From: Polyangiaceae bacterium
GTDB taxonomy: Bacteria; Myxococcota_A; Polyangia; Polyangiales; Polyangiaceae
Length of the DNA: 41,430 bases
Direction of reading: 5' to 3'
Assembly (NCBI GenBank): GCA_025937835.1
Contig: JAICQO010000061.1
Location: 1-41,430 of the forward strand
The notes under the pieces are model-generated. The model made no database searches. It saw nothing but the letters and a program-made list of their open reading frames with translations, and had not been told where the DNA came from. The translations under genes were made by a program, and so were the position numbers. Every line of letters begins with the position of its first letter. The stretch's first letter is position 1. Of the stretch, positions 191 to 38,454 are shown piece by piece.

Positions 191-3100
191 TCAGCTAGCC
201 GAGCGCAGCGTGTCGCGCACGACTGGCGCGGTCGGAGTGGCGCCGCGCGCGAGCTTTTCCGGCGGGCCTTCGCCGACGCGACGCCCGCCGCGCTCGCCGC
301 CGTCGGGGCCGAGCTCGATCAAGTAGTCCGCGCCCGCGAGCACCTGGGGGTGATGCTCGATCACGACCAGAGTGTCGCCGCGGTCGACGAGGCGACCGAG
401 CACGCGCATCAGACGCTCCACGTCGGCGACGTGCAGGCCCGTGGTGGGCTCGTCCAGCACGTACAGCGTGGGCTCGTGGCGCAGCGAGGCGGTGAGCTCG
501 GCTGCCAGCTTCAGCCTTTGGGCCTCGCCGCCGGAGAGCGTGTGGGAGCCTTGACCGAGGCTCACGTAGCCGGCGCCGAGATCGGCCAGCGTGCGCAGCG
601 GCGCCGCGATCGTGCGGTGATTCTCGAAGAAGCGCGAGCCTTCCTCGGCCGTGAGCGCGAGCACGTCGCCTATCGACTTGCCCTGATACTTCACCTCGAG
701 CGTGCGCGGTTCGAAGCGCAGGCCCGAGCAGGTCGGGCAGCTCGAGACGACGTCGGGCAGGAAGCTCATCTCGTGCGTGATGGCTCCCTGGCCGTCGCAA
801 GCCGGGCAACGGCCGCCGTTCGGCGTGTTGAACGAGAAGCGCTGCGGCAGGAAGCCGCGGACCTGGGCTTCGGGCGTGGACGCGAACAGCTTGCGGATCG
901 GATCCCAGATGCCGAGGAAGGTGGCGGGCACGGAGCGCGGTGTCCGGCCGATCGGAGATTGATCGATGGCGATGGCGCGCCGGAGCGTCTCCGTGCCCTC
1001 GAGCTTCTGGAACTCGCCGGGGTCGTCGGCGATCAGGCCGAGCTTCTGCCGCACGGCAGGCAAGAGCACGCGGTTGATCAAAGTGCTCTTGCCCGAGCCC
1101 GAAACCCCGCACACCGCCGTGAAGCGACCGAGCGGCAGCTTGATGTCCACGCCCTTGAGGTTGTGCTCGCTCGCGCCGGACAGGCTCAAGAATGCCTGAG
1201 ACTTGGCGATCGGCAGCGGTTTTCTGAGCTCGGGGGCGCGCGAGAGCGCACGGCCCGTCGGTGAGTCGGGCTGCGCGAGCACGTGCTCGGGCGAGCCTTC
1301 GGCGGTGACGCGGCCGCCGGTGGTGCCGCCGCCAGGGCCGAGATCGATCAAATGATCGGCGGCGCGGATCGTGTCGGTGTCGTGCTCGACGACCAGGACC
1401 GTGGAGCCGAGCTCGACCAGCCGCCGCAGGTTCTGGATCAGCCGCCCCGTGTCGCGCGGGTGCAGGCCTATCGTCGGCTCGTCGAGCACGTACAGCGCGC
1501 CGGTCAGGCCCGCGCCGAGCTGCGCGGCCAGACGCAAGCGCTGCATCTCTCCGCCCGACAGGGTGTGCGCGGCCCGATCGAGCGCCAGGTAGTCGAGGCC
1601 CGTGTCGCACAAGAACACCAGCCGGCGCTCGAGCTCGGCGACCAGCGGCGTGGCGATGCGTGCCGTGTCGCCTGCGAACGAGAGCTTGCGAACGCGCGTC
1701 AACGCGGAGCCGACGGGGCGCGCCAGCAGCTCGTGGTAGCGCTCGCCGCACAGGCGCACCGCGCGCGGGATCGGCGCGAGCCGCGTGCCGTCGCAGTCGG
1801 GGCAGGTCTGTTCGTGCTCCTCGACGCGGCGGTTTTTGCCTCGTCCCAGCACCTTTTCCGTGATCAGCACGCCCTTGCCCTCGCACGGCTCGCAGCGGCC
1901 CTGTTTGGTGGCGAAGGAGAACCAGCGCGGGTCGAGCTCGGGCACGGAGAAGCCGCACACCGGGCAAGCGCCGACCGTGGAGAAGAGCGACTCGGTGCCG
2001 CTCGGCGTGCGCAGCTTCAGCGCGCCGCGGCCGAGCTCGAGCGCGCGGCGCAGCTCGGCGTGCTGGAAGGCCTTGGGCTCCCGCGGCGGCGCCACCACCA
2101 GGTCGATCGTGTGCTCGCGGGTCTTGGCGAGCTTTGGCGGATTGTCGCACTCGACGAGCTCGCCGTCGGCGAAGGCGAGCGTGATGCCGGCGCGCGCCGC
2201 GCTCGTGAACACGTCGAGGTAGGTGCCCTTGCGCGCCGTGACGGCCGGCGCGAGCAGATACGCCCGGCCCTTGCTGCGGCGCACCGCGTCGAACACGTCT
2301 TCCTCGCTGCGGCCCCCGATCGGGCGGTCGTGCTCGGGACAGTGCGGCGTTCCGAGCCGCGCGTAGAGCAGGCGCAGGTAGTGCGCGACCTCGGTCACGG
2401 TCGCGACCGTGGATTGGCCGCCAGTGCGCGCCGTGCGCTGCTCCAGGGCGATCGACGGCGGGATGCCGTTCACCGAGTCTACGTCGGGACGCGGCATGGT
2501 CGGCAGGAATTGCCGGGCGTAAGGCGTGAGCGTCTCGAGGAAGCGGCGCTGACCTTCGGCAAACACCACGTCGAAGGCCAGCGTGCTCTTGCCGGAGCCG
2601 CTCGGTCCCGTGACCACGGTCAGCGAGCCGTGCGGGATCTTCACCGAGACGTCGTGCAGGTTGTGCTCGCGGGCGCGCGTGACGTCGAGTGAACGCTCGC
2701 GACGGCTCGGCCGCCGCGCGGACTCGGGGACGACGCCTTCGGCGGTGCGCCCGCGCAGGCGCTCTGCGAGGGCTCGGCCAGTGCGCGTCTCCGTCTTCGC
2801 GAGCTCGGCCGGCGTGCCCTGGGCGACGACCCGACCGCCGGCGCTTCCGGAGCCGAGGCCCATGTCGATCGCGTGATCGGCGTCGAGCACCAGATCTAGA
2901 TCGTGCTCGACCACGACCACGCTGGCGCCGGCTTCGACGCTGCGGCGCAGGGCCGCCGAGAGCAGAGTGACTTCGTCGGCGTGCAGGCCCGCGCTCGGTT
3001 CGTCCAGCACGAACAGCGTGCCGTTCGGGCTCTCGGACAGCGCACGCGACAGCTTCAAGCGCTGCGCCTCGCCTCCGGAGAGGGTCGAGAGCGGCTGTCC

Positions 3101-5485
3101 GAGCGTCAGGTAGCCGAGCCCGAGCAACGCCAGCGGGCCCAGCGCGCGCTGGATCGACGCCTCGCCGCGGAAGGTCTCGAGCGCGCGCTCGACCGTCATG
3201 GACAGCACGTCGGCGATGCTCTGCCCGTCGAGCTCGACGGCCAACACGTCGTCCTTGAATCGCCGGCCACGGCAGGTCGGGCAGATCAGCCGCACGTCGG
3301 CCAAAAACTGCATCTCGACCGTCTCCGCGCCTTCGCCCGAGCACGCCTCGCAGCGCCCGCCCTCCACGTTGAACGAGAACGACGCAGCCGTGAGCCCGCG
3401 CGCGATCGCGCCCGGTTGTTTGGCGTAGAGCGCGCGGATCGTGTCCCAGGCCTTGGTATAGGTGGCGGCGTTGCCGCGAGAGGTGCGCCCGAGCGGGCTT
3501 TGATCGACGAGCACGACCCGCTTCAGCGTCGCTCCGCCCTCGAGCGCCGCGTGGGCCCCGGGCCGCTCCACGTCGAGCTCGCCGAAGCGGCGCGCCAGGG
3601 CCTTGTAAACGATGTCGACCGCCAGCGTGCTCTTGCCGGAGCCGCTCGGCCCCGTGATCGCGCACACCACACCGAGCGGGATCGCGACGTCGACGCCGGT
3701 CAGGTTGTTCTCACTGGCGCCGCTCACGCGCAGCGTGTCGCGGATTCGGGCAGGGCTGCGCGGCTCTCGCGCAGGACCGAGCAGCGCGCGCGTCGTAGCG
3801 AGACGCGCATCGGTGAAGGCTGCGGGCGGCGCATCGGCGACGATCGTTCCGCCTTGCTCGCCCGAGCCCGGTCCGAGCTCGATCACGCGATCCGCTCCCG
3901 CGATCAGCTTTGGATCGTGCTCGACGACGACCACGACGTTGTCCCGCCGCGACAGCTCGCGCAGGATCTCGATCAGCGGCTCCACGTCGGCGGGGTGCAG
4001 GCCCACCGTGGGCTCGTCCAGCACGAACAGCGCGTTGTTCAGCGAGGTGCCGAGGGCCGCCGTCAAGGTCACGCGCTGGGCTTCGCCGCCCGACAGCGTG
4101 CGTGCCTGGCGATCGAGCGTGAGATAGCCGAGGCCCACGCGCTCGAGGTAGCCGAGCCGCGATACGAGCTCGCGCCGCGCGAGGTCGCCCTGACCCGTCT
4201 GCGTCTTCAGCTGGTCGAGCCGCCGCTTGGCTTCGCCGACCTCGAGCGAGTGCCAGGCCGCGAGGTCCAGCCCGCCGACGCGAAACGCGAGCGCCCCGGA
4301 GTTCAGGCGCCTGCCGCCGCAGGTGTGACAGGGGTCGTAGGCGCGGTAACGCGCGAGCAGCACGCGCACGTGCAGCTTGTAGGTCTTGGTCTCGAGCCAG
4401 CGGAACCAGCCGAGGACGCCCGGGAACAGGCCCGCGTCCCAGCTCCCGTCCCCCTCCAGCACGAGCTTTTGCTGCTTCTTCGGCAGCGCTTGCCAGGGCA
4501 CGTCCAGCGCAATGCCGTGGCGCCTGCAGAGCTTGGCGAGCTCCGACCGCTCCCACTTGGTCGACGCACCGCGCCAGGGCCGGACGGCCCCCTTGGCGAG
4601 CGACTTTTCGTGATCGGGGATCACCTTGTCGAGATCGACGCCGAGGGTGCGGCCGAAGCCGCGGCAGACCGGGCAGGCGCCGAGCGGCGACTCGTACGAG
4701 AACAGCCCGGCGCGCGGCTCGGGCAATGAATCGCCGCACTCGGGGCAGCCGAGCCCACGCCGCAGCACGAGCTCGGCGCTGTCTTCGGCGTGGACCATCG
4801 CCGTGCCCGCGCTGCGCGACCAGGCGAGCTCGATGCTGTGCGCAATCCGCCCGCGCTCGGAGACCCGGACCCGGTCGAGCACGACTCGACACTGGGCGCC
4901 GATCACGTCCGACGGCCGAACGCCGTCTATATCGCGCACTTCGCCCGCGACTAGCAGCCGGCGGAAGCCATCGCGTGCGAGCGCGTCGCGGAGCTCCAGG
5001 TACTCCTCGTGCCCGACTGGTGCGATGGGATAGCTCACCAGAGCGCGGGCGCTGCCGAAGCGCGCGTGGACCTCGGCTGCGGCGCGTTCGGTGTCGAGCA
5101 GCACGGCCTCCACGCCGTGGGTCGAGCACACCGGCAGGGCTTCGCGCAGGAACAGCGCGGAGAGGTAGGGCTCGAGGTCGGCCATGGTGGCGACCGTCGA
5201 CCGCGAGCTCTTGACGGGCGCCCGCCGATCCACGGCAATTCCGGCTGGAACCGGCTCGAGCGAGCGGACGTCGGGGCGCTCCAGGCGCTCGAGGAACTGC
5301 CGCGCGTAGGGGCTGAAGCTCTCGACGAAGCGGCGCTGGCCTTCGGCGTACAGCGTGTCCATGGCCAGGCTGCTCTTGCCGGAGCCGGACACGCCCGTGA
5401 CCACCACCAGCTCGCCCGGGGCGAGCGTGACGGAGACACCTTTCAGATTGTGAACGCGAGCGCCTTCGAGCGTTGTCTCGAGCAT
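191..5485 (-). CDS. uvrA: Tandem UvrA fusion (excinuclease ABC subunit A, two copies in one chain)
   Basis: UvrA is the damage-sensing ABC ATPase of nucleotide excision repair; it normally works as a homodimer that loads UvrB on damaged DNA. Here 1764 residues hold two complete UvrA units, against about 950 for one. Walker A motifs lie near residues 31 (GVSGSGKS), 610 (GPSGSGKS), 960 (GPSGSGKS) and 1458 (GVSGSGKS). ABC signatures of the LSGGE type lie near 462, 800, 1310 and 1650. Each half has the second, DNA-binding zinc finger (CxxC...CPTC, near 710-740 and 1560-1585) and a UvrB-binding-like insert after the first Walker A. In the first half the early Cys pair is degenerate (VCSTHG). The ATG at 5485 sits directly before the conserved start of the fold. 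Tandem UvrA chains are known in some bacteria. This may be the main UvrA or a second specialised copy; that cannot be told from here. Confidence 0.95.
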   Translation of the reverse strand: MLETTLEGARVHNLKGVSVTLAPGELVVVTGVSGSGKSSLAMDTLYAEGQRRFVESFSPYARQFLERLERPDVRSLEPVPAGIAVDRRAPVKSSRSTVATMADLEPYLSALFLREALPVCSTHGVEAVLLDTERAAAEVHARFGSARALVSYPIAPVGHEEYLELRDALARDGFRRLLVAGEVRDIDGVRPSDVIGAQCRVVLDRVRVSERGRIAHSIELAWSRSAGTAMVHAEDSAELVLRRGLGCPECGDSLPEPRAGLFSYESPLGACPVCRGFGRTLGVDLDKVIPDHEKSLAKGAVRPWRGASTKWERSELAKLCRRHGIALDVPWQALPKKQQKLVLEGDGSWDAGLFPGVLGWFRWLETKTYKLHVRVLLARYRAYDPCHTCGGRRLNSGALAFRVGGLDLAAWHSLEVGEAKRRLDQLKTQTGQGDLARRELVSRLGYLERVGLGYLTLDRQARTLSGGEAQRVTLTAALGTSLNNALFVLDEPTVGLHPADVEPLIEILRELSRRDNVVVVVEHDPKLIAGADRVIELGPGSGEQGGTIVADAPPAAFTDARLATTRALLGPAREPRSPARIRDTLRVSGASENNLTGVDVAIPLGVVCAITGPSGSGKSTLAVDIVYKALARRFGELDVERPGAHAALEGGATLKRVVLVDQSPLGRTSRGNAATYTKAWDTIRALYAKQPGAIARGLTAASFSFNVEGGRCEACSGEGAETVEMQFLADVRLICPTCRGRRFKDDVLAVELDGQSIADVLSMTVERALETFRGEASIQRALGPLALLGLGYLTLGQPLSTLSGGEAQRLKLSRALSESPNGTLFVLDEPSAGLHADEVTLLSAALRRSVEAGASVVVVEHDLDLVLDADHAIDMGLGSGSAGGRVVAQGTPAELAKTETRTGRALAERLRGRTAEGVVPESARRPSRRERSLDVTRAREHNLHDVSVKIPHGSLTVVTGPSGSGKSTLAFDVVFAEGQRRFLETLTPYARQFLPTMPRPDVDSVNGIPPSIALEQRTARTGGQSTVATVTEVAHYLRLLYARLGTPHCPEHDRPIGGRSEEDVFDAVRRSKGRAYLLAPAVTARKGTYLDVFTSAARAGITLAFADGELVECDNPPKLAKTREHTIDLVVAPPREPKAFQHAELRRALELGRGALKLRTPSGTESLFSTVGACPVCGFSVPELDPRWFSFATKQGRCEPCEGKGVLITEKVLGRGKNRRVEEHEQTCPDCDGTRLAPIPRAVRLCGERYHELLARPVGSALTRVRKLSFAGDTARIATPLVAELERRLVFLCDTGLDYLALDRAAHTLSGGEMQRLRLAAQLGAGLTGALYVLDEPTIGLHPRDTGRLIQNLRRLVELGSTVLVVEHDTDTIRAADHLIDLGPGGGTTGGRVTAEGSPEHVLAQPDSPTGRALSRAPELRKPLPIAKSQAFLSLSGASEHNLKGVDIKLPLGRFTAVCGVSGSGKSTLINRVLLPAVRQKLGLIADDPGEFQKLEGTETLRRAIAIDQSPIGRTPRSVPATFLGIWDPIRKLFASTPEAQVRGFLPQRFSFNTPNGGRCPACDGQGAITHEMSFLPDVVSSCPTCSGLRFEPRTLEVKYQGKSIGDVLALTAEEGSRFFENHRTIAAPLRTLADLGAGYVSLGQGSHTLSGGEAQRLKLAAELTASLRHEPTLYVLDEPTTGLHVADVERLMRVLGRLVDRGDTLVVIEHHPQVLAGADYLIELGPDGGERGGRRVGEGPPEKLARGATPTAPVVRDTLRSAS

Positions 5486-5621: not shown

Positions 5622-5966
5622 CTAGCGCGAGCGGCGCTGAGGCACCTTGCCGCCAGAGCGCCGGGCTTCGGACAAGCCGATCGCGATGGCTTGCTTGCGG
5701 CTGCGCACCTTCTTGCCCGAGCGACCCGAGCGCAGAGTGCCTTGCTTCATCTCGTGCATGGTGCTCTCCACCTTCTCGCTCGCCTTCTTTCCGTACTTGC
5801 GCGAGCCGCGGCGAGCCGACGTCTTGCGAGACGAGCTCTTGCGCGACGACGTCTTGCGAGCCGACGTCTTGCGAGAGGTCTTGCGAGACGAGGTCTTGCG
5901 GGAGGTCTTGCGAGACGCCTTGCGGGTCGAGGTGGAACGCTTGCGGGTCTTCTTACGTGATGCCAT
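5622..5966 (-). CDS. Basic histone-H1-like protein with C-terminal DUF6496 domain
   Basis: This is a 114-residue protein. The first half is almost entirely Ser/Arg/Lys/Thr in repeated SRKTSRKTS-type units (residues 2-55), like bacterial histone H1-like tails that bind DNA or RNA without sequence preference. The second half (YGKKASEKVESTMHEMK and KSRKQAIAIGLSEAR-like segments) matches my memory of DUF6496, a small domain of unknown function in proteobacteria. The ATG at 5966 is preferred: a longer open frame upstream runs back through the coding sequence of the acidic neighbour. The gene follows that neighbour on the same strand after 46 nt, so the two are probably co-transcribed. Nucleoid or nucleic-acid binding is inferred from composition. 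Confidence 0.85.
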   Translation of the reverse strand: MASRKKTRKRSTSTRKASRKTSRKTSSRKTSRKTSARKTSSRKSSSRKTSARRGSRKYGKKASEKVESTMHEMKQGTLRSGRSGKKVRSRKQAIAIGLSEARRSGGKVPQRRSR

Positions 5967-6012
5967 GCGCCCCGATTGAGCAACATTCGTGCCGAGGTCC
6001 CGGTCCTCAGCT

Positions 6013-6402
6013 TTATTCGTCCTCGTCTTCGTCGTCTTCGTCGTCTTCGTCGTCTTCGTCGTCTTCGTCGTCTTCGTCCTCGGCGGCGACCGACGGTTCG
6101 AGGCGATCGGCCAGGAGAGCCTTGGCGCGTTCGGCCCGGCGCAGCTCCTCTTCACGGCACTCTTCGAAGAACGTGACGAGCTCGCTGTCGCCCGCTTCGC
6201 GCGCGTCGTCCGCGTACTCGTCGTACGTCTCTGCTCCCTGAAGCGCGTGATAGAGCACGCTCACCACGCCGTACAAATCGTCGCTGGTGCCGCGCTCGGT
6301 CGGCGCGCTCTTCGGCAGCGGCGCCGGCTTCGAGCGCGCAGCCGCCTTGCCTTTGGTCGTCGGGATCGCAGCGGAGCGTGCAGCTTGCGGTTGGTTCGGC
6401 AT
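6013..6402 (-). CDS. Small helical protein with repetitive Asp/Glu tail
   Basis: This is a 129-residue protein of unknown function. Residues 1-38 are basic and Ala/Pro/Lys-rich. Residues 40-108 look like a two-helix bundle rich in Glu, Tyr and His (DDLYGVVSVLYHALQGAETY; FFEECREEELRRAE), which recalls ferritin-like helical hairpins. The last 22 residues are Asp/Glu only, built from repeated DDE units. A strong ribosome site (AAGGAGG on the minus strand, 6408-6414) precedes the ATG. It is the upstream partner of the basic DUF6496 gene. An acidic protein next to a basic histone-like one invites a chaperone or counter-ion role, but that is inference. Confidence 0.8.
   Translation of the reverse strand: MPNQPQAARSAAIPTTKGKAAARSKPAPLPKSAPTERGTSDDLYGVVSVLYHALQGAETYDEYADDAREAGDSELVTFFEECREEELRRAERAKALLADRLEPSVAAEDEDDEDDEDDEDDEDDEDEDE
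6025..6078 (+). repeat. six exact copies of a 9-nt tandem repeat
   Basis: The unit GTCTTCGTC is repeated six times without mismatch and is flanked by imperfect copies. It encodes the DDE tail of the acidic protein on the minus strand. Each unit is three codons, so gain or loss by slippage would change tail length without shifting the frame. Confidence 0.9.
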
Positions 6403-6591
6403 GAGGGCCTCCTTCAGGTTGGGACCGCCCGAAGTGCAACCTCGATGCCGCCTGCGCGCGACGACTCGACGCGCGATGATCCTCGCGAAAGGTGCGAGGT
6501 GTGGGGACGCTCCGCGTCAGTGCGCCGCAGCGTGACAAGAACGCGTGTGCACTTTGAGCGGCTGCGCAGGCACGTTACGCTGGAGGGAAGC

Positions 6592-8013
6592 ATGGCGCCG
6601 CGCAGGCAACCGAGGCTGCTCTGGTTCGCAGCGTTCGTCGCGCTCAGCGTGAAGGCTTGCAGCGGGGACGGTTCGAGCTCCGGAGCCGAAGCGGGCGCGT
6701 CTGGCAGCTCGAACGGCGGAGCCGACGCCGGCACGTCCAGCGCACGAGGCGGCGCGATGCCGTCTGCAGATACCGGCGGGCGCGCTGCGACCAGCGGAGG
6801 ACGCTCTCCCGCATCCGGCGGCCGCGAAAGCAGTGGCGGCTCTGCCGGTGGAACGGCCTCCGGGAGCGGCGGCAAGGCGGAGCCGACTCCACCACCCGAC
6901 GACGAGCTCGGGGCATTTCCCTTCACGCCTTCCACGGTGACGCGCGGCGGGACCATGACCTTCACCAACGTCGGGGCTCCGGGCTTCTGGCCCCGGCGCA
7001 TCGAGCGCGAGCCCGGCGACCCCGCTTGCGATTACAAGGACGGAACCGACACCTGGGGTGGGCACTGCTGCATGACCCGCCACGAGACCGGCAGCGCCGC
7101 GCTCTCGCCGTTCGACGAAGAGATGACGCTGATCCTCAAAGCCATCGACGTGAAGCAGCTTGCCGTGTACCAACCGGCAGAGCCCGGCGCCGACTACCGC
7201 CGGGTCAGCGCCTGGGATTCTCGCAGCGGCGAGGCGCAAAACCTCTGGTTTACGCAAAAGGGCGACGGCAGTTCGTCCTTCCCCGGGGACTTGAGCCGCA
7301 ACGACTGCGTCGGCTACGTGATGCAGGAGCCGCTGGCCTCGTGCGGCGACTACTTCTGCCCCGACGACGACGGCATCCTGCATCGCGGCTACTCCGGCTC
7401 GAAGCTGGTGGTCTTTCTGGGCTCGACGAATTTCGACGACGCCGGCGTGGCCGCCTGCGACGGCGACGGCGAAGGCCACCCGGGTCCGTGGGTCGCTTTC
7501 GTGGCGTCCGAGCTGGTGCGTGACGGAGGCCGCAAGTGGAACGGCGCCTGCAACTGCTACTCGAAGACCGGCAGCGTCGGCGACGGCTGTGGCGAGATCA
7601 ACGTGTTCGAGGTCGTGATGGACGACAACGACTTTTCGAACCGTGAGTTCGCGAGCACCGGCGTGCGCTCGTACCAAGCCGGCCACGTGGGAGGCGCGGT
7701 GTGCAAGGCGTCGTGCCGCCGCGACCAATTTCCCGATGACGTCGAGGTCGTCGACGCCTGCGCCGGGAGCGCGTACGAGCACGGCCCGGTGCTCGAGGTC
7801 GGCGGCGACACCGACGGTTGCCCCGTCTGGCGCCGCCCCGATGGCGACCGCTATTTCTTCATCCTACTCGACGAGCAGCAGCGCGCGATCCAGGTCGGCA
7901 TCGTCCACCCGGCCAACGTACCCGCGGCGATGGCAGAGCTCTTGCCGGAGCTACCCGGGAGCGTTTCGCGCGCGGCGATCGACCAGGTGCTCGCGCTGCG
8001 GCTGCCCGAGTGA
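6592..8013 (+). CDS. Tos1/YJL171C-like secreted protein (putative GH16-related glucanase)
   Basis: This 473-residue protein is exported. It has a hydrophobic segment at residues 9-22, then Cys23 in a weak lipobox (VKAC), then about 80 residues of Ser/Gly/Ala linker. The rest (106-473) resembles the two domains of fungal cell-wall proteins Tos1/YJL171C (old DUF2403 and DUF2401). It has LSPFDEEMTLILKAIDVKQL (171-190), a RVSAWDSRSGEAQNLWF stretch, CNCY (320-323) and GCGEINVFEV (332-341). The last segment has the spacing of the GH16 catalytic motif E-x-D-x-x-E, with E335 and E340 kept and Asn337 where Asp is usual. A GGAGGG ribosome site lies just before the ATG; the frame is open upstream, but that part lacks a signal peptide. 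Action on glucan, perhaps of fungal prey, is inference. The family match is from memory and was not searched. Confidence 0.7.
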   Translation: MAPRRQPRLLWFAAFVALSVKACSGDGSSSGAEAGASGSSNGGADAGTSSARGGAMPSADTGGRAATSGGRSPASGGRESSGGSAGGTASGSGGKAEPTPPPDDELGAFPFTPSTVTRGGTMTFTNVGAPGFWPRRIEREPGDPACDYKDGTDTWGGHCCMTRHETGSAALSPFDEEMTLILKAIDVKQLAVYQPAEPGADYRRVSAWDSRSGEAQNLWFTQKGDGSSSFPGDLSRNDCVGYVMQEPLASCGDYFCPDDDGILHRGYSGSKLVVFLGSTNFDDAGVAACDGDGEGHPGPWVAFVASELVRDGGRKWNGACNCYSKTGSVGDGCGEINVFEVVMDDNDFSNREFASTGVRSYQAGHVGGAVCKASCRRDQFPDDVEVVDACAGSAYEHGPVLEVGGDTDGCPVWRRPDGDRYFFILLDEQQRAIQVGIVHPANVPAAMAELLPELPGSVSRAAIDQVLALRLPE

Positions 8014-29875: not shown

Positions 29876-31291
29876 TCAGAAACCTTCGTCGCCGTCGGCG
29901 CGGCGCGTTCTGTACTGCCGATAGGCGCTCGTGAACTCGGGGCCGAAGATGTACGCGAACGCTTGTCGCTCTTCGGATAAGTCCTCGTAGCGCTGGCGGT
30001 AGGCCTGCCAGAGCGCCTTGTGCTTGCCGAGCCCGAGCCCCAGGGCGCCGCCGCCCTGCTGATTCTCGAGGTTCTCGGGCGAGAGCTCGTCGAGCAACGC
30101 GCGCACTCCGCGCATCACGCCGTCGAGCAGCGCCATCTGGTGCAACATCAAGTCGGCAAACATGCCCTCGATCGCCTGCGGCGCGTCGAACGAGCGATCG
30201 CGGAAATCCAGCAGCGCCGCCGCGACGGCTTCGGGCGTGCGCGCTTCGGCGACCTTGGCGTAGGCCTCCGAGCGATAAGCGCTCTTCTGCACACGCGCGA
30301 GGTCGAGCGACGAAACGAACTGCGTGTAGCCTTCGCGCAGCGGGATGAAGCAGCGGCAGAACACGTCGACCGCGTCGTGGAGCTTGGTGATGAAGCGCGC
30401 CACGTCGCCGGACGTCTCGAGCGTGAGCCCCGGCACCAGCGAGCCTGCGAGCTCGCGCAGCCCCTGGATCGCCAGGCTCTCGGTGCCTCCGAGCTCGTCG
30501 AAGAACTGCGTGTTGTTCGAGCGTCGCGCCGGCCCGGCCTGCGGCAACTGTGCGCCCGGTTGGTGAAAACCACCCCCGCCTGCCTGCGGCGGATAAACCG
30601 GGGGCGCTCCCTGCCCCGGCAGGTCAGGAAGACCCGGGACCGCGGGTTGCTGACCCGAGCCGCTCGGGTAACCGGGGATCGCGGGTTGCTGTCCGGAGCC
30701 GCCGGGATATCCGGGCACCGCGGGCGGCTGACCCGACCCATAACCGGGCGGAGCTCCGTACCCGGGTTGCGCAGGCAGGCTCGGATAACCTTCCGCGGGC
30801 GGAGGGCTCGAAGCTGCGTGCTGCCCCGACGGCGCTCCGTAGCCGAGCCCGGGTGGTTGCCCAGCGCCCGGCGCGTCGAGCAGCATGGCGGGGTTGCCGA
30901 GCACACTGCCGCTCGCGGGCAGGTCGCGAAACGCGAGGCTGTGCGGCGCTTGCTCGAACGTGATCTGGATCCGGAGCTGCGGACCCAAGAAGAACTGGAA
31001 CCCGGACGCCGACAGATCGATCGGTGTATCCGCCGCGGCGCGCTTCGGCATGCTCGCGCCGTAGTAGTCGGGGATGAACACGCCGTTCTTGCTGCCCAGA
31101 TCGCGAATGCAGATCTTGCCGTCGACGTCCTCGATGCGCGCGTGGAAGCTCGAAACCGAGAGCTGCCGCACCTGATAGTCGTTCAGGGGGTTTCGCCCGA
31201 TACGGATCGGCAAGGCAGCGAACTTGTGCCGCCGCACTTCCACCGGGGCGTTGTCGAGGGTGAAAGCGTTCAGGATGAACGCGGTCTGCAC
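29876..31291 (-). CDS. tagH: T6SS-associated FHA-domain protein (TagH type)
   Basis: This is a 471-residue protein. The N-terminal FHA domain (about 22-115) has the phosphothreonine-binding signature: GR at 32-33, SSFH at 47-50, and NG at 69-70 in LGSKNGVF. Residues about 140-245 are a Pro/Gly/Gln linker with repeated PGYPSGSGQQPA units. The C-terminal helical domain (about 260-465) matches the conserved end of T6SS FHA proteins (GLRELAGSLVPG; KHKALWQAYRQRYEDL). FHA proteins link threonine phosphorylation to T6SS assembly. It is the last gene of the tss operon, 14 nt after tagF. No kinase or PppA phosphatase lies beside it. Confidence 0.88.
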   Translation of the reverse strand: MQTAFILNAFTLDNAPVEVRRHKFAALPIRIGRNPLNDYQVRQLSVSSFHARIEDVDGKICIRDLGSKNGVFIPDYYGASMPKRAAADTPIDLSASGFQFFLGPQLRIQITFEQAPHSLAFRDLPASGSVLGNPAMLLDAPGAGQPPGLGYGAPSGQHAASSPPPAEGYPSLPAQPGYGAPPGYGSGQPPAVPGYPGGSGQQPAIPGYPSGSGQQPAVPGLPDLPGQGAPPVYPPQAGGGGFHQPGAQLPQAGPARRSNNTQFFDELGGTESLAIQGLRELAGSLVPGLTLETSGDVARFITKLHDAVDVFCRCFIPLREGYTQFVSSLDLARVQKSAYRSEAYAKVAEARTPEAVAAALLDFRDRSFDAPQAIEGMFADLMLHQMALLDGVMRGVRALLDELSPENLENQQGGGALGLGLGKHKALWQAYRQRYEDLSEERQAFAYIFGPEFTSAYRQYRTRRADGDEGF

Positions 31292-31305
31292 CCGCCGATA
31301 CTACG

Positions 31306-32268
31306 CTAATCAGTCGCCAAAAGAAGATCGGCGACGCTCGCGCCGTCCGTGGCGAGCACTTCATGAACTTTGGGCGGCAGGGGTGGCAGGGTAGAAACCC
31401 ATTCCCCTTCGAGACGTGCGCACAGGTCACACACCTCGTCTCGACTGCCCGAGGGCAGCCAGAGCTCGGACAAGGTGCTCGCCGGAGGTTGGCCCAGGTT
31501 CAACATCAGCCCGCCGGCCTGCCCGTCGTGTGACCAGAAAAAGCTCGGTACCGTCGCACGCCAGCCCAAGAAGCGGCGCGCCAGATCGAGCCAGAAGCAC
31601 AGCGCCGCCCCTCCGGCCTGGCCGAGCGGGAGCCTCAAGCTGAGGGGTGAGCTCGGGTGCTCGATTCCGCGCAACGGTCGGACGGCCTCGGCGAGTAGCT
31701 TCAGGGGAGCGACTGGATCCGACCCGAACGTGTTCGCGTCGAGCAGGTGCCAGAGGTCGCGCAGGGGCATCTGCTCGGTCCAGCCCCGGTAAGACTCGAA
31801 CGCCATCTCGAAGTCGAGCTCCGACCGGGTCGCGAGCACTCGCGAGCGTTCATCGAGGTCTGGCGTCGGCCGGTGCGACGACTCAGCGACCAGATTGCCC
31901 GCCGCCCACCAGAACTCTTCGAGCAGCAGCGGGAGGATGTGTGGTGAGCGCACCAGGTTCTGATCGAGCGCGAGCATGGCCCCCGCGATCAGGGGGAACT
32001 TGCGCCCGGCCGCGTCGGCGCTCGGCCCGAGTGCGCCGGTGATCGGCGCGCCCTGCCCACCGGGAGGGTGGAACAAGTAGGCGTGGATCGAGCCGCGTGA
32101 ATAGCTGTCGAGGAAGGCCGCTCCGCCGCGTTCGCTCGCCCATTCGAAGCTCCCCGCCAGCCAGTCGTCGAACGCGACGAACGCCGGGTGGCTCGCGCGA
32201 ATGTGAAGGAAATCTCCGTGCGCCGGAGACTTGCCGAGCACGCCCACGGGGCCCGCCGTGAGCTCCAT
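31306..32268 (-). CDS. tagF: T6SS accessory protein TagF
   Basis: TagF is a cytoplasmic T6SS regulator, known in Pseudomonas to repress post-translational firing, sometimes with the FHA protein. The 320 residues start VGVLGKSPAHGDFLHIRASH, the family hallmark GKxPxxGDF, followed by DDWLAGSFEW and PITGALGPSADAAGRKFPL. The start ATG shares one base with the tssM stop (TGATG), so translation is coupled; the longer open frame upstream lies inside tssM. TagF and FHA side by side suggest control through an FHA-TagF contact. Confidence 0.9.
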   Translation of the reverse strand: MELTAGPVGVLGKSPAHGDFLHIRASHPAFVAFDDWLAGSFEWASERGGAAFLDSYSRGSIHAYLFHPPGGQGAPITGALGPSADAAGRKFPLIAGAMLALDQNLVRSPHILPLLLEEFWWAAGNLVAESSHRPTPDLDERSRVLATRSELDFEMAFESYRGWTEQMPLRDLWHLLDANTFGSDPVAPLKLLAEAVRPLRGIEHPSSPLSLRLPLGQAGGAALCFWLDLARRFLGWRATVPSFFWSHDGQAGGLMLNLGQPPASTLSELWLPSGSRDEVCDLCARLEGEWVSTLPPLPPKVHEVLATDGASVADLLLATD

Positions 32269-35200
32269 CAGCGCCTGCCCCCGGCAGCAGGGAGCCCGGC
32301 GGAGACCTGTGCCGGGCAGCGCAGCCGCTTGAAGAACCCGGGCGAGAACGGGTGCACCGACTTCGACGGCTTCACGTCGAGCGTGACCGGCGGTTGGCCG
32401 GGCCGCGTCAGCGTCCAGCTGCCCGCGAGCACCGTCATGCCCTCCGAGATCTGCCCGCTGGCCTTCAGGTTGCCGGCCGCGAACAGGCGAAACAGCCCGA
32501 AGTCGCCGAGCCGCGGGATCTCGTCCGTGAAACCAGCGCCGCGCACGCGCAGGATGCCGCCTATCGGCTGCGCCTTGCCCGGCCACTGCACCGGCAGCCA
32601 GCGCTCCGGCTCGTTCCGGTAAATCGTCGGCTTGCCGTCGACGATCAGCGAGACCTCGGAGATGGCCGAGCCCACGGGGTGGATCTTGATAGAGAACGGC
32701 ACGAGCGGCTCGGTACCGGTGCCGAAGACCGCGTCCGTGATCTCTTGCGCGACGTTCAGGCACTGCAAGAAGTCGGGGCGCAGCGGCATGTCGGTGCTGG
32801 CGCGCGGCACGAAGCGGTTGCCGCTGCGCTCGAGCCGGCTCTCCAGGTTCGTGGCGTAAAACTTCCAGAGTGTGCCGGTCTGCGGCCGGAAAAACTCGGC
32901 AAATTCGGGGATCGTGACGTCGGCGGGCACATCGGCGAACGGATAGCGCGGCGCGATCTTCTGCGCGTAGATGTCCCAGACCTCGGCTTTCCAGTGTTCG
33001 CTGAGGGCGCTGTAGTCGGCGACCATCACGCCTTCCTGGCTGCCCTTGATCGGGTTCATGAGCAGCGGCTCGAGCACGAGGCGCGTGCGCGGCTCGATGC
33101 CGCCGAGCAGCCGCCGCACGGCGCTGGCCGTGCGCTGCAGCTCGTTGTTGAAGTCCTTGCTGACCTCTTCGCGGCTGTCGGAGAGCTGCGTCAGGCTCAC
33201 CTCGAGGTTCGTGAGCTGCGCGAGGTACTGGCTGAGCCCCGACGGAGCGACGTCGGCCTTGCCCGCCGAAGGTTCACCGAAGCCGAAGCGCAACAGCGGT
33301 TGGAACTGCTTCTCGACCGGAGAAATTTCCTTCTCCTGCTCGCCGGCGTCCGCGACCTCCGCACCCACGCCGGCGTCGCCGAGCCCCACCTTGTTCAACG
33401 CCCTGTCGAGCTTCTTGCCGGCGACCTTGGCGGCCTTGCCGAGCGCCTTGTCGAGCAACGCGTTCGAGTCGTACGGAAGCCGCATGTTCTCGCCGATCAC
33501 CTTGAACAGCCGCACGTACGGCCCCTCGGTCTCGGAGAGCGCGCGCAGCTCTTCGATCGCGCCGTTCATGTCGGTCGGCGCCTTCACGCTCAGCGCGCCG
33601 ATGAAGTCCTGCCAGGCCCGCCCGTAGCGCTGGAAATACAGCTCCTGCAAGCGTTGCAGGTTGGAGGTTCGCACCTCGTCGGTCTGGATCACGCTGCGGC
33701 CGAGCACCCACGGCTCGATGTCGAAGCGGGTGTCCGGCGATTCGAGCAGCGCCTTGACCTTCTGCCAGCCGAGCGCCGTGTACAGGCCCGGCACCGCCAC
33801 GTTGTTGCGCGCGTCCCAGTACGGAGCGGCCCCGCCGATGAAGATGTTCTCCGGTCGCACCGGCGGCGCGCCCTTGGCCGCTTCCACCAGCCAGCCGTAG
33901 TGGAGCTCGTCGAGCGGCACCATCGAGAGCCGGCCCTGCGCACGCGCGATCGCGCTCTTGTCCGGCGACCAGGCCCACGTCTTGTCTGCCGCGAGCGCCT
34001 CCACGTAGTAGCCGGCGTGGAGCTGGAGCTTGTCCTTGTCGGTCTCGGTCTCTGAGCGCAGCGCGCGCGCCCAGGCTTTCGCGAGCTTCTGCGTCGCCCA
34101 GTCGTTCTGGAGATGCTCCGGGTAACAGAGCATCAGATACAGCTTCAGATCGTCGTAACCGGCCTGGAAGTTCGTGGCATCCATCCGGGTCAGGTCGCCG
34201 ACCTGGGTGACGTCCCCGACGAGCTGCGTCTGAACCGGCCCGCTCACGAGCGCGCGCAGGCGCTCGAGATAAACGCCCTTCAGCGCCGAATACATGGGCG
34301 GCGCCGTGTACGGCCCCCAGAACGCGCGCACCTGGCTCTCGCCGTTGGCTTGCTCGAGCTTCTGCACGCGGCTCATCAAGAGGTCGAGCGAAGCGGCCGT
34401 GGCCGCGGCCCCGCCGTTCGGCGTGCGCTCGAGCTTTTGCGAGTCCTCGATGTCCTCGGTCGTGGAGCGGACCAGCTTCGAATTTTCGACGTAGGCGAGC
34501 GCCGCCGGCAGGATCATCGTCAGCGTGCCGAGCAGCGCGATCGACACGACCGCGATCTGCCGCCGCAGCTTGCGCCGCACCTGGCTCATCGAGCGCACGG
34601 CCAGGTGGCGATCCGGGAAGATCACGCGCTGGAACAGCTCGGTGATGAAGTAGCTCTGGGGCGGCGCGGTCAGCCCCTGTCCGGCCGCCGGCATCGCCAG
34701 GTTGAAGCCGCGCGCCATGTTGTCGAGCACGCGGTCGATGGCGCGGCCGGTCTGCGTGCCGCTCGCGAAGTAGAAGCCGCGGAGCAGCGGCGTCTCCTGG
34801 TAAGGGTTCGGCCGGCAAAGCTCCTCGGTGAAGCGCGTGAGCGGCTGGCGCAGCGCGTGGAACTCCACCGGAAACTGCAGGATCTTCGAGCGCACCTCGG
34901 CCAGCGGCTCCCCTGCCAGGCGCTCGAGCATGCGCGCGTGCAGCACGCGCACCAGGAGATCGAACTCGGCCTCGATCGCCGGCGCCGGATCGTCCAGATC
35001 CGTGTCCAGGCTGAAGCTCGCGCCGAACGCCTGGGCGCGCTGGGCCTTGGTCAGGTCGCCGCAGAACTCCACGAAGCCCGCCACCAGATCGACCTTGGTG
35101 GTGAGCACGTAGATCGGCAGCACCATTTCGAGCCGCCCCATCAGCTCGTCGGCGCGGGCGCGCAGCGTCTTGGCGAGCTCTTCGAGATCGACCTCGCTCT

Positions 35201-35840
35201 TCGACAGCAGATCCTCGGCGCTCACCGCCACGATCAGCCCGTCCAGCGGGCGCTCGCTGCGGAAGCGCTTGACCGTGTCGAGGAAGCTCATCCACTCGTC
35301 GCGATCGTCTTCGCCCGTCGCCAGGCGGCCGGCGGTGTCGAGCAAGATCGCGCGCTCCGAGAACCACCAGTCGCAGTTGCGGGTGCCGGCCGTGCCGCGC
35401 ACCTTGGCGCCGCTCGAGCCCGGCGGCGCGATGAAGCCGAGGCCGGACTGGGTGAGCGCCGTGGTCTTGCCCGCGGCGGGCGGCCCGACGATCACGTACC
35501 AGGGCAGAGCGTAGAGCGCCGCGCGGCCGCCCTTCGAACCGAGCTTGGTGCGCTTCAGCGCATCCAGCGCGTTCTTCATCTGCGTCTGCAGCGCCATGAT
35601 CTCGGCGCGGCGGTCGGGCCGCGCCTTGTCGGCCTGCGCCGCGGCTTGCTTGAGCAGCTCGCGCTCGAGCGCGGCCGCCTTCATCGAGGCGCGGATGCGG
35701 CGCACCACGATCCAGGTGACGATCGTCAGGACCGCGACGACCGTGAACACGATCGCGATCCACAGCGGCCACTCGAGCAGAATCACCAGCACCCACAGGG
35801 CGGCGGTGAGCAGGGCGAGGACGATGGCGAGCCAGATCAT
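32268..35840 (-). CDS. tssM: T6SS membrane complex protein TssM (IcmF)
   Basis: TssM spans the inner membrane and forms the trans-envelope complex with TssL and TssJ. The 1190 residues are a full-length family member. Two membrane helices lie at about 3-22 and 27-48. The cytoplasmic NTPase domain has Walker A GPPAAGKTT (119-127), the LLDTAGR box and a TKVDL guanine-type motif, so NTP binding looks intact. A third helix lies near 430-448 (VVSIALLGTLTMILPAALAY), and the large periplasmic part with the IcmF-related and C-terminal beta domains fills the rest. Its start overlaps the tssL stop by 4 nt. Confidence 0.96.
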   Translation of the reverse strand: MIWLAIVLALLTAALWVLVILLEWPLWIAIVFTVVAVLTIVTWIVVRRIRASMKAAALERELLKQAAAQADKARPDRRAEIMALQTQMKNALDALKRTKLGSKGGRAALYALPWYVIVGPPAAGKTTALTQSGLGFIAPPGSSGAKVRGTAGTRNCDWWFSERAILLDTAGRLATGEDDRDEWMSFLDTVKRFRSERPLDGLIVAVSAEDLLSKSEVDLEELAKTLRARADELMGRLEMVLPIYVLTTKVDLVAGFVEFCGDLTKAQRAQAFGASFSLDTDLDDPAPAIEAEFDLLVRVLHARMLERLAGEPLAEVRSKILQFPVEFHALRQPLTRFTEELCRPNPYQETPLLRGFYFASGTQTGRAIDRVLDNMARGFNLAMPAAGQGLTAPPQSYFITELFQRVIFPDRHLAVRSMSQVRRKLRRQIAVVSIALLGTLTMILPAALAYVENSKLVRSTTEDIEDSQKLERTPNGGAAATAASLDLLMSRVQKLEQANGESQVRAFWGPYTAPPMYSALKGVYLERLRALVSGPVQTQLVGDVTQVGDLTRMDATNFQAGYDDLKLYLMLCYPEHLQNDWATQKLAKAWARALRSETETDKDKLQLHAGYYVEALAADKTWAWSPDKSAIARAQGRLSMVPLDELHYGWLVEAAKGAPPVRPENIFIGGAAPYWDARNNVAVPGLYTALGWQKVKALLESPDTRFDIEPWVLGRSVIQTDEVRTSNLQRLQELYFQRYGRAWQDFIGALSVKAPTDMNGAIEELRALSETEGPYVRLFKVIGENMRLPYDSNALLDKALGKAAKVAGKKLDRALNKVGLGDAGVGAEVADAGEQEKEISPVEKQFQPLLRFGFGEPSAGKADVAPSGLSQYLAQLTNLEVSLTQLSDSREEVSKDFNNELQRTASAVRRLLGGIEPRTRLVLEPLLMNPIKGSQEGVMVADYSALSEHWKAEVWDIYAQKIAPRYPFADVPADVTIPEFAEFFRPQTGTLWKFYATNLESRLERSGNRFVPRASTDMPLRPDFLQCLNVAQEITDAVFGTGTEPLVPFSIKIHPVGSAISEVSLIVDGKPTIYRNEPERWLPVQWPGKAQPIGGILRVRGAGFTDEIPRLGDFGLFRLFAAGNLKASGQISEGMTVLAGSWTLTRPGQPPVTLDVKPSKSVHPFSPGFFKRLRCPAQVSAGLPAAGGRR

Positions 35841-36523
35841 GGAGCATCCCGCAAGACGCGCGAGCTGCCGAGCGGCATGGCCCTGAGCGCGTCGTGCACG
35901 TCGCTTTGCAACATGCGGTCGAGGCCGAACAACACCAGCGCCGTGAGCAGCAAGCTGCCGACGATCAGCGCGATCAGCGGTGCGCTCGACGATTTTGTCT
36001 TCTGCACGCGTTCGCGCGGCTCGGCGTGCGGACCGAGCTTGTTGGTGGGAACCAGCGAGCTCACGAGCTGCTTGCGCGCCGCGTCGGTGAAGCTCGAGAG
36101 CGAGGCCATGTCACCGCTCACGCCGTAGGCGCCGCGGAAGCCGAGCGTCAGGCACAGGTAGTAAGCGTGCAGCGCCTCGGGGCGATTGCCTTGCTGCAGC
36201 AAGCTGCGCAGGCGCACGAAGAAGTTCTCGCCCGCCGTGTTGTGTTGGTAGAGCAAGAGCTGGAGCGGCTGCCCCATCCACTCGTTCCGGCCGTACCAGC
36301 TCGACTTCAGGATCTGCTCGTCGAGGAAGGCGACCAACGCGTAGCGAGCTTCGGCCAGATCGGCGTCCTGGATCCCGAGCGAGCGCCCCTTGCCCACCAT
36401 CGCGTCCAGCGCCGTGAGCAGCCGCTGCCGGAGCTCCGCGGGCGCGGGCAAGCTGGGCGAGGTCGGCAACTGCACGCCGACCATCAGCACGTCGGCACAA
36501 GCCCAGTACACCCGATCGCTCAT
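35837..36523 (-). CDS. tssL: T6SS inner-membrane protein TssL (DotU/IcmH)
   Basis: This 228-residue protein is the short form without a peptidoglycan-binding extension. The cytoplasmic helical domain has the family pattern ARYALVAFLDEQILKSSWYG (59-78), WMGQPLQLLLYQHNTAGENFF (82-102 region) and YYLCLTLGFRGAYG (121-134). One membrane helix lies at 181-203 with a short periplasmic tail. It is placed 12 nt after tssK and overlaps tssM by 4 nt. It docks the baseplate protein TssK to the membrane complex. Confidence 0.95.
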   Translation of the reverse strand: MSDRVYWACADVLMVGVQLPTSPSLPAPAELRQRLLTALDAMVGKGRSLGIQDADLAEARYALVAFLDEQILKSSWYGRNEWMGQPLQLLLYQHNTAGENFFVRLRSLLQQGNRPEALHAYYLCLTLGFRGAYGVSGDMASLSSFTDAARKQLVSSLVPTNKLGPHAEPRERVQKTKSSSAPLIALIVGSLLLTALVLFGLDRMLQSDVHDALRAMPLGSSRVLRDAP

Positions 36524-36535
36524 GCCCCGCTCCGC

Positions 36536-37879
36536 CTATCGGAGGTGGGCCGGATCGACCGCGTACAGCGACAGTCCGGCGCCCGCCCATTCGCCGTCCA
36601 CCGGCAGATACAATGCCACCGTCGACGACTTGGCGATCTCGTCCCAGTACGTGCCCTCGCGGCGCACGCGGAAGAAGCACACCCCCGGCTTCACGGGCAG
36701 CGCGCCGGTCGGGTTCCACTCGACGTTGACGCGCACGCCGTGCCGCGCGTGCTTCACCACGTCGTAGATCTGGTTCCAGCCGGCCATCTTGAGCACGCCG
36801 GGCACGCGCTCGCGCAGCAACGCCTCGGCGAGGCTGGCCTTGACCGAGACGAAGAACTCGTGCGCCACGAGCTTCGGATCGCCGATGCGCCCGATGAACA
36901 TGCCGTCGGGGCGGTGCTCGAGCGGGATCTCGACGTACGACTGCTCGATGCCGCCGGGCAAGAGCCGGAGCACGATCGCGAACAGCGTCTCGAAGCACTC
37001 GCCGAGCTCGAGGTAGTTGAACTTCGGCAGATCGCTGGGATCGAAGTCGGCGGAGAAGCTCGCGAGGCTGCCGGCCAGGTTCGCCAGCATCAAATAGGCC
37101 TCTTCCGGGTGGGCGCGCGGCGTGTCGAGCAGGTGATTGAGCTGCGGGATCGCGCCGTTCAGCGTGTGCAGCAGCCAGAACTTGCGGGCTTCACTGACGT
37201 GAAAGTCGACGCTGCCTTGCTGGCGCTGGCGGCGCTCGCCGGTGAGCTGCTGCTGGCGCGCCACGATGTTGGCGAGCACGCGGCGCACGCCGTTCTCCAG
37301 GAACGGTGCCGTGGACAGGTGCGCGACCGGCGGGATGCGCGTGTCGAGCACCTGGAACTGGCCATTCTCCTGGCGCAGCAGCTCGGCAACGCGGATCACG
37401 GCGAAGCCGTCCTTGCGTTCGTTGCCGTAGAGGATCTGCAGGTTGGCGTCGGCCCACTCGAGCTCTTGCGGCGAAGAGCCGTTGTTCAGATCGACCACGC
37501 TGCGGATCTCGCGTTTGTAGCGGCGCGCCGCGGCGCCGTCCTGCGCGACCATCGCCGTGTCGTTGCTGTGCGCGAGCCCGACGTAGACCTCGAGCTTCAC
37601 GGCCTCGGGCGGCAGAGGGCGGGGAGCAGGCGGTGGGATCGGCGTGCCCTCGCCGCAGCTGACGACCGCGCCGTCGGGCCAGATCGCGGAGAACTTGCGC
37701 AGCTTGAACTGGCCGGCGGCGAAGCCGCGCTCGTCGATGTCGAGCTCGGTGATACCCCAATCGTAGTGAGTGACCGCGCTCAGGCGGTCTTGCAGGATCT
37801 TCTCGTGGTAGCGGTCCTGCTGCTGGAAATGGTGCTGGCTGACCAGCAGACCCTCGGTCCACAGCGGCTTGTGCGCCAT
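36536..37879 (-). CDS. tssK: T6SS baseplate protein TssK
   Basis: TssK links the T6SS baseplate to the membrane complex. The 447 residues begin MAHKPLWTEGLLVSQHHFQQ, close to the family signature LWxEGxFLxPQHFQQ, continuing QDRYHE. The shoulder and helical neck domains follow, with LEVYVGLAHSNDT and EKxxxDLPKFNYLELGECFE-like segments. It has the usual family length. The ATG at 37879 is chosen because the signature starts there, 5 nt after the tssJ stop. The longer frame upstream lies in tssJ. Confidence 0.95.
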   Translation of the reverse strand: MAHKPLWTEGLLVSQHHFQQQDRYHEKILQDRLSAVTHYDWGITELDIDERGFAAGQFKLRKFSAIWPDGAVVSCGEGTPIPPPAPRPLPPEAVKLEVYVGLAHSNDTAMVAQDGAAARRYKREIRSVVDLNNGSSPQELEWADANLQILYGNERKDGFAVIRVAELLRQENGQFQVLDTRIPPVAHLSTAPFLENGVRRVLANIVARQQQLTGERRQRQQGSVDFHVSEARKFWLLHTLNGAIPQLNHLLDTPRAHPEEAYLMLANLAGSLASFSADFDPSDLPKFNYLELGECFETLFAIVLRLLPGGIEQSYVEIPLEHRPDGMFIGRIGDPKLVAHEFFVSVKASLAEALLRERVPGVLKMAGWNQIYDVVKHARHGVRVNVEWNPTGALPVKPGVCFFRVRREGTYWDEIAKSSTVALYLPVDGEWAGAGLSLYAVDPAHLR

Positions 37880-37884
37880 CGTTC

Positions 37885-38454
37885 TCAGTAACCCCCGCTC
37901 GACGCCGGGGCCCCTGCGTCGGATTGAGTTTCCGGTTCCGGCTCGGCCTCGCGCCCCGCGCCGTCCTGGATTTGCATCCGGTCGACCCAGACCGGGATCC
38001 GCTCGCCCTGTTTCGGACAAGGTGGCGTCGTGCGCGGACCCTCGAGGTCGTACGTCACGAACCAGTCCTTGCCTTGTGGCTCGCGAAACAACGCCACGAG
38101 CGCGAGCGTCGCTGCGCCCGGCGTGGGTGTGACAGGAAACAGCTTCGTCTCGCCCGGGAACAACGTCTGCTCTTCGACCCCGAGCAGATCCTTGTCCAGC
38201 GTGACGGCGTCGTTCTGCCAGATATCTTCGAAGCTTGCCGTGCGAAGCCGAGCATCGGAGCGAAGTTGGTAGATGCGCACCTGAACGGGCCGCCCTTCTC
38301 CAGTCGCCTCCGCATTGACCCGAGCCGTCGCCGTGATGGCGAGGGTCGGCTTCACCGGCTCACAGGCCTTGGGGGCCGCCTTCGGCGCAGGGGGCGGCGT
38401 CGAGCCGCATCCCAGCACCACACCACAAATCAGCGCGAACACCGCGTTTTTCAT
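37885..38454 (-). CDS. tssJ: T6SS outer-membrane lipoprotein TssJ
   Basis: TssJ anchors the T6SS membrane complex to the outer membrane. The 189-residue chain has a lipoprotein signal MKNAVFALICGVVLGC (Cys16) and then a Pro/Ala linker. The transthyretin-like domain includes RPVQVRIYQLRSDARLRTAS, FEDIWQNDAVTLDKDLLG and ETKLFPVTP, the family pattern. The last 25 residues are a Glu/Pro/Ser-rich tail. It heads the operon tssJ-K-L-M-tagF-tagH. A TATAAC box on the minus strand (38465-38470) lies only 10 nt before the ATG, so if it is a -10 element the mRNA would be nearly leaderless. Confidence 0.92.
   Translation of the reverse strand: MKNAVFALICGVVLGCGSTPPPAPKAAPKACEPVKPTLAITATARVNAEATGEGRPVQVRIYQLRSDARLRTASFEDIWQNDAVTLDKDLLGVEEQTLFPGETKLFPVTPTPGAATLALVALFREPQGKDWFVTYDLEGPRTTPPCPKQGERIPVWVDRMQIQDGAGREAEPEPETQSDAGAPASSGGY

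Follow-up and report, generated by a model that had tools for sequence, protein, structure and literature searches.

What does a protein with the layout of a fungal cell-wall protein do in a bacterium, and does a change in its GH16-like motif mean that it grips glucan rather than cuts it? This question is raised by a gene at 6592..8013 (+ strand) in a stretch of 41,430 nucleotides, hereafter the window, which spans positions 1-41,430 of contig JAICQO010000061.1 from a Polyangiaceae bacterium (assembly GCA_025937835.1). A preliminary description, made from the sequence, had recognized in the product an exported protein of the Tos1/YJL171C type with Asn in place of Asp in the motif, and had considered a role in the binding or remodelling of beta-glucan and a transfer between kingdoms.

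A Tos1-related exported protein

The gene encodes a protein of 473 aa (plus stop) from an ATG start, with GGAGG, a putative ribosome-binding-like site read by eye, 5 bases upstream (6582..6586, +). The hydrophobic N-terminus reads as an export signal with Cys23 at its end (6592..6660, +). It is followed by a Gly/Ser/Ala-rich linker of about 80 residues (6661..6900, +), which ends near residue 103 and whose sequence itself is not conserved among members, so that the export behind a Ser/Gly linker proposed earlier agrees with our reading. All the motifs named in the preliminary description were found in place. SPFDEE (residues 172-177) is included in the match to PF10290 (YJL171C_Tos1_N; 7066..7176, residues 159-195, +), and the match to PF10287 (YJL171C_Tos1_C) covers 7366..7635 (residues 259-348, +). 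The CNCY motif (7549..7560, residues 320-323, +) has both Cys invariant in 27 aligned rows, GCGE stands at residues 332-335, and EINVFE (7594..7611, residues 335-340, +) occupies the place of the GH16 motif ExDxxE, with Asn at 337.

A relaxed lipobox was detected in 45 of the 55 members examined (within the 160 residues before the core), ahead of a similar linker. The window protein has Lys at position -2 and failed this relaxed pattern; with such an atypical lipobox, it may be secreted instead of lipidated.

We then scanned the window protein against Pfam. Only the two Tos1 domains were found, in N-to-C order and both below the curated cut-off of 27 bits (19.2-20.0 bits for PF10290, 19.2-20.1 bits for PF10287, the placed matches scoring 19.2 bits each), with E-values of 9.9e-4 for PF10287 and 1.7e-3 for PF10290 (5.2e-4 and 9.6e-4, respectively, with the core alone). 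Whole-genome searches with PF10290 and PF10287 at E 0.001 missed the window gene. Against NCBIfam, nothing came near a cut-off (best E 0.062), and a sequence search of the PDB gave no significant match (best E 0.35).

The homology of the window protein to Tos1 is therefore bridged by its relatives. Both Tos1 domains were matched by all of the 27 aligned members, the window protein included, at E up to 10, the best E-values being 1.8e-11 and 1.3e-7 for the two families. Fifteen relatives were also scanned singly (five including L044, and ten including L112, L093, L056, L104, L085 and L086). Five of them, all from the subfamily with Asn in the motif (L044, L112, L093, L056 and L104), passed both cut-offs, and 8 of the 15, besides the two canonical proteins described below, passed one cut-off at most. 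Within this subfamily, PF10290 scores reach 44.7 bits, and five other members score 28.1-31.9 bits with PF10287. The profile search suggested in the preliminary description had a divided outcome, sub-threshold for the window protein itself and above both cut-offs for five of its subfamily relatives. Given the conserved domain order and these relatives, the alignments indicate that the window protein is homologous to Tos1/YJL171C. That a secreted, Cys-rich protein resembles Tos1 by chance, as the sub-threshold scores of the window protein might suggest, is scarcely credible: both cut-offs are passed by relatives in its tree, and canonical bacterial rows score about 160 bits.

These canonical rows, L085 and L086, are full-length Tos1 proteins from two metagenome-assembled genomes of the window's class, with an intact motif (ELDVAE) and scores of 160.7 and 162.1 bits with PF10287 and 59.4 and 59.2 bits with PF10290, respectively. 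The gene of L086 is flanked by bacterial genes (a lipoprotein-type gene and a HlyD-type protein), the short contig of L085 carries the same lipoprotein-type neighbour (compared by eye), and both proteins have a bacterial lipobox. The bacterial neighbours and the lipobox speak against fungal contamination.

The motif and its relation to GH16

In GH16 enzymes, the two Glu of ExDxxE serve as nucleophile (the first) and as acid/base (the last). The window protein does not have this laminarinase-type motif (EINVFE), but it keeps both Glu. We examined residues 335, 337 and 340 in a tree of 56 bacterial rows, a quick build with SH-aLRT support only and with long-branch warnings, from which the fragment L047, the masked L111 and second-frame hits below 45 bits were omitted. 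Glu-Asn-Glu was found in 28 rows, Gln-Asn-Glu in 26 and Glu-Asp-Glu in two, which are L085 and L086; L111, whose motif is GCGELDVVE, would make a third row with Asp. Asn337 and Glu340 are thus invariant in the subfamily, the place of Glu335 being occupied by Glu or Gln. The motif types follow the tree, with 3 state changes where shuffles need 20.2 on average. The window protein lies within a supported clade of 26 rows, all of them Glu-Asn-Glu, and in the sister group of this clade (13 rows) the first Glu is replaced by Gln in 11. Copies of the Glu type and of the Gln type occur within 5 kb of each other in five genomes (G067 and G084-G087).

Variants of the L085 protein were scored with the PF10287 profile. 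In the middle of the motif, Asp gains 2.7 bits over Asn and 4.4 bits over Ala, and Glu gains over Gln 2.6 bits at the first place and 2.9 bits at the last. The reading of EINVFE as a GH16-like motif with Asn for Asp is in line with this preference. Since Asn is found in all of the 54 subfamily rows and the profile prefers Asp, Asn is a fixed feature of the subfamily and not a recent mutation. From these sequences, Asp is the usual residue of the Pfam family and Asn the fixed state of a bacterial subfamily. The picture of a lone fungal-type protein bearing a mutation is not supported; the protein is part of a bacterial subfamily, and its gene has the base composition of the host. In this subfamily the motif is also followed by some 50 inserted residues, which are absent from the canonical bacterial rows.

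The available text of PMC4176579 reports that dbCAN assigns TOS1-like proteins to GH16. In our searches, no match of PF00722 (GH16) to the window protein was listed at E up to 10, with filters that drop most matches above 0.1. Using hhalign, we aligned the canonical rows with 14 myxobacterial GH16 sequences, which put the motif in register (score 30.6, P 0.00098, probability 22%). None of 100 column shuffles of the canonical set reached 30.6 (maximum 19.0), this set being made of the near-identical L085 and L086 plus the L111 fragment, and column shuffles being a lenient control. The Asn subfamily alone was not significantly similar to GH16 in the same kind of profile comparison (probability 0.4%, 15 out of 100 shuffles as good), and the mixed alignment A5 was equalled by 6 out of 100 shuffles.

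Two structure models were built for comparison with the GH16 fold, a ConA-type jelly roll. The first one (19 rows) was poor, with a pLDDT of 47.1, and the second one, which had four 44-45% paralogues among its 20 rows, reached a pLDDT of 61.8 and a pTM of 0.73. The second model shows part of a beta sandwich, with little confidence around the motif: the pLDDT is about 50 there and falls below 50 on both flanks. Foldseek found no match to this model at E 0.001. VIA-align of the same mediocre model gave weak rows, led by 2qng (Z 5.5, 131 aligned, rmsd 3.8). In this list, the laminarinase 3azx (Z 3.8, 139 aligned, rmsd 4.3) ranked near unrelated rows, together with a TerD homologue (Z 5.0), a legume lectin (4.5), a kappa-carrageenase (3.2) and many antibody chains.

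Glucanase neighbours and the proposed role

GH128 is a family of beta-1,3-glucanases, in which the Sc of the enzyme ScGH128_II presumably stands for Sorangium cellulosum. A scan of genome contigs with the window protein, which reaches close relatives only, returned 18 loci of myxobacterial type. At these loci and in the window (frame shadows aside), the commonest neighbour is an exported protein, present in 11 of 19. The two examples of it that were scanned are GH128 proteins (PF11790; 212 and 183 bits). One GH128 neighbour is close to the solved structure 6uax (phmmer E 1.6e-154), identified as ScGH128_II in the accessible part of PMC10956234.

Then, we counted GH128 genes near Tos1-like genes in the window's family (40 typed copies, 42 GH128 matches of at least 50 bits, partial matches in G037, G102 and G075 left out). 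A strong GH128 match lies within 5 kb of 25 of the 40 copies, in 17 of 30 genomes, and for 16 of these 25 copies only 40-336 bases separate the domain edges. Conversely, 24 of the 42 strong GH128 matches stand beside a Tos1-like gene. In the wider class, we examined 20 loci (18 from other families) with models for GH128 and for a SUN-like protein built from recurrent neighbours, and GH128 was detected in 13. Two of the seven loci without GH128 are on contigs of 5.3 and 8.2 kb. G008 (with GH128) and G072 (without) enter both counts. At one locus, L193 in G008, a canonical Tos1 gene (PF10287, 68.7 bits over its unmasked part) lies within 4 kb of both GH64 and GH128, and the GH64 match (PF16483, 100 bits) and an RCC1-repeat gene stand between the GH128 and Tos1 genes. 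These recurrent neighbours favour the link to beta-glucan that had been suggested for the window protein.

The export on a flexible linker, the conserved Cys framework, the motif middle, which is without charge throughout the subfamily (as is the first residue in about half of it), and the pairing with GH128 suggest a glucan-binding partner. With a changed active-site residue and a beta-1,3-glucanase gene frequently nearby, the protein would probably grip a fungal or algal polymer and not cut it. We give an even chance to the reading that it acts at the surface as a beta-1,3-glucan-binding partner of glucanases and is probably non-catalytic. Held off the cell surface by its Gly/Ser linker, it would grip a chain of beta-1,3-glucan with what was once the active-site groove, cut it poorly, and so bring fungal, oomycete or algal glucan to the surface glucanases. 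In the window genome, where three GH16 matches are present and the only PF11790 match scores 26.6 bits, the partner enzyme would be encoded outside the window. Several points count against this reading: the window copy has no GH128 on its 41-kb contig (nor a SUN-like gene), its lipobox is atypical, the structure model is of middling quality, and none of the solved folds ranks clearly above the rest.

As both Glu are kept in the window protein, some activity is possible. An active enzyme, with Glu335 as nucleophile, Glu340 as acid/base and Asn337 tuning the rate or favouring transglycosylation as in wall-remodelling enzymes, is the strongest alternative, which we nevertheless judge unlikely. 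Both Glu are present in half of the 56 rows, including the whole window clade, and a pairing with GH128 would suit a set of enzymes. A review, PMC10932003, credits Tos1 in its accessible text with a demonstrated role in remodelling the wall of non-Saccharomyces yeasts, and this would argue for enzymatic activity in the family as a whole. Against this reading stand the Gln that replaces the first Glu in most of the sister group and the oomycete Tos1-type domains, which have ExDxxE and yet, in the available parts of PMC7219551 and PMC4915311, did not hydrolyse laminarin; the authors of PMC7219551 allow for misfolding and a missing exon behind this result.

It is more doubtful still that the protein would serve another ligand at the surface, such as the matrix polysaccharide of the bacterium itself or a partner in cell-cell contact, with no role on foreign beta-glucan. 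Fifteen of the 40 family copies, that of the window among them, lack a strong GH128 within 5 kb, and the insert after the motif, present in the Asn subfamily, would also fit such a role. However, the pairing with GH128 recurs in several families of the class, and GH64 is found at one locus. The glucan-binding partner remains our preferred reading.

Known systems offer partial likenesses to this proposed binder. Tos1 is a wall protein of yeast, whose activity is mostly called predicted or putative in the available text of PMC11657238, PMC3852720 and PMC5872309. Fungal Tos1/YJL171C and the window protein are alike in domain order, in export, and in a six-residue motif that, with the Cys and Gly around it, falls at the same profile positions. 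The window protein differs by its bacterial export signal, by Pfam scores below both cut-offs and, together with its subfamily, by Asn for the motif Asp in 54 of 54 rows, with Gln for the first Glu in 26. The oomycete protein OPEL carries a GH64/thaumatin-like domain, a Gly-rich part and a TOS1-like domain in one chain, according to the part of PMC7219551 at hand, and mutation of its motif abolished the elicitor effect (PMC7219551 and PMC4915311, in part). As in the window protein, a Tos1-like domain follows a Gly-rich stretch, and at the canonical locus L193 a GH64 gene is near, unfused. OPEL as described there keeps ExDxxE and unites all parts in a single chain; in the window protein the motif is altered and a GH64 part is absent.

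The insect beta-glucan-binding proteins are described in the accessible text of PMC6403176 as related to GH16 but devoid of its catalytic residues, and as binding beta-1,3-glucan. They would resemble the proposed mode, a GH16-type fold being kept for binding and its catalytic residues lost. They are a parallel only, from another lineage and with an immune role, and are not known to be permuted. GluM, an outer-membrane beta-1,6-glucanase that Corallococcus sp. EGB uses on fungi (PMC10800785, available text), is likewise a myxobacterial surface protein acting on glucan and, by the same text, a precedent for a surface glucanase deployed against fungi, but it is described as an outer-membrane beta-barrel enzyme, a different kind of protein. 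For the window protein, a use in predation on fungi is what we would infer from the proposed role, and no more than that.

A broader proposal, which we put forward tentatively, is that of a myxobacterial surface module for beta-1,3-glucan capture, assembled from wall-protein families known mainly from fungi and oomycetes. A Tos1-type binder, arisen through the fixed Asp-to-Asn and often a Glu-to-Gln change, would be paired with GH128 and, at one locus, with GH64, some genomes having both copy types and a sub-threshold SUN (GH132)-like neighbour. The same bacterial family could show whether myxobacteria capture fungal glucan with a Tos1 domain, and its natural Asp/Asn and Glu/Gln variants, beside a GH128 of a solved kind, offer a route to asking whether this domain cuts or only binds beta-1,3-glucan.

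The SUN-like exported protein is the second recurrent neighbour (8 of 19 loci, and also L178, at 8065-9420 in L007, 8029-9393 in L010, 4403-5773 in L006 and 5538-7040 in L178). TRTQFPG and HAEGFTWPELR are invariant across the eight aligned members. With PF03856, six of the eight give sub-threshold matches at E up to 10, the lowest E being 0.046, and a search of 317 genomes of the class with this profile at E 0.001 found nothing. Its assignment to GH132 was therefore kept as a lead only. In L007, L009, L010 and L011, Tos1-like paralogues of the Glu and Gln types lie close together, with a GH128 and a SUN-like gene nearby. Within positions 1-12000 of L193, beyond the partly masked Tos1 gene, there are matches to an arabinofuranosidase, a fucosidase and a GH42 galactosidase.

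Distribution and origin of the bacterial genes

We searched for relatives of the window protein at increasing taxonomic distance. They were found in 30 of 108 genomes of its family (partial matches included) and in 34 of 183 genomes of its order. In 317 genomes of the class, PF10290 matched 39 (35 over the cut-off) and PF10287 matched 37 (15 over the cut-off). A phylum-wide sample gave matches in 8 of 377 genomes, the window's own included, all of them in the window's class. The distribution of Tos1-like genes is thus patchy, and because the profile searches were centred on the window's phylum, this bacterial range should be read as a minimum. Among the holders with names are Sorangium, Polyangium, Minicystis and Labilithrix, and the nearest named relatives of the window bacterium are Polyangiaceae. 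No relatives were found on plasmids (searched with the L044 and L085 proteins), in phages (L085) or on viral contigs (alignment A2).

A recent transfer of a fungal gene into the window bacterium would agree with a family described from fungi and oomycetes, as it is in the available text of PMC5872309, PMC4176579 and PMC7219551. The presence of relatives in many genomes of the family and the class does not support it. Furthermore, the window protein shares 75% identity with its nearest relative and 37-52% with deeper bacterial rows, its reading frame is uninterrupted, and its GC content resembles that of its surroundings (69.4% for the gene vs. 68.8% for the window). The transfer considered in the preliminary description is, in its recent form, very improbable. 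An ancient transfer between kingdoms, in either direction, may have occurred; our tree holds bacterial rows only.

In the open-licence full-text literature, we found no paper combining Tos1 and myxobacteria, and the open-licence papers on PF10287 or DUF2401/DUF2403 are confined to fungi and oomycetes. Bacterial members may already appear in the species list of Pfam. These bacterial genes bear on where the Tos1 of fungi and oomycetes came from. If bacterial Tos1 is ancestral, wall proteins of both groups may descend from bacterial glucan-scavenging genes.

Finally, we looked at the other genes of the window. Type VI secretion genes occupy 29879-39337 (an FHA protein with T6SS_FHA_C, IcmF (TssM), DotU, VasE (TssK) and Hcp). 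A 1764-aa protein at 194-5485 (- strand) contains ABC ATPase parts as well as two stretches of the UvrA-interaction type and one of the UvrA DNA-binding type, and resembles two UvrA chains in tandem fusion. The gene at 5625-6155 (- strand) encodes a Lys/Arg/Ser-repeat protein with DUF6496 at its end (80.3 bits) and covers 12-27-base tandem repeats at 5811-5924. From its first start codon, this frame overlaps another one on the same strand at 6013-6402, which encodes a short protein whose tail, an Asp/Glu run, comes from a perfect 9-base tandem repeat at 6023-6078.
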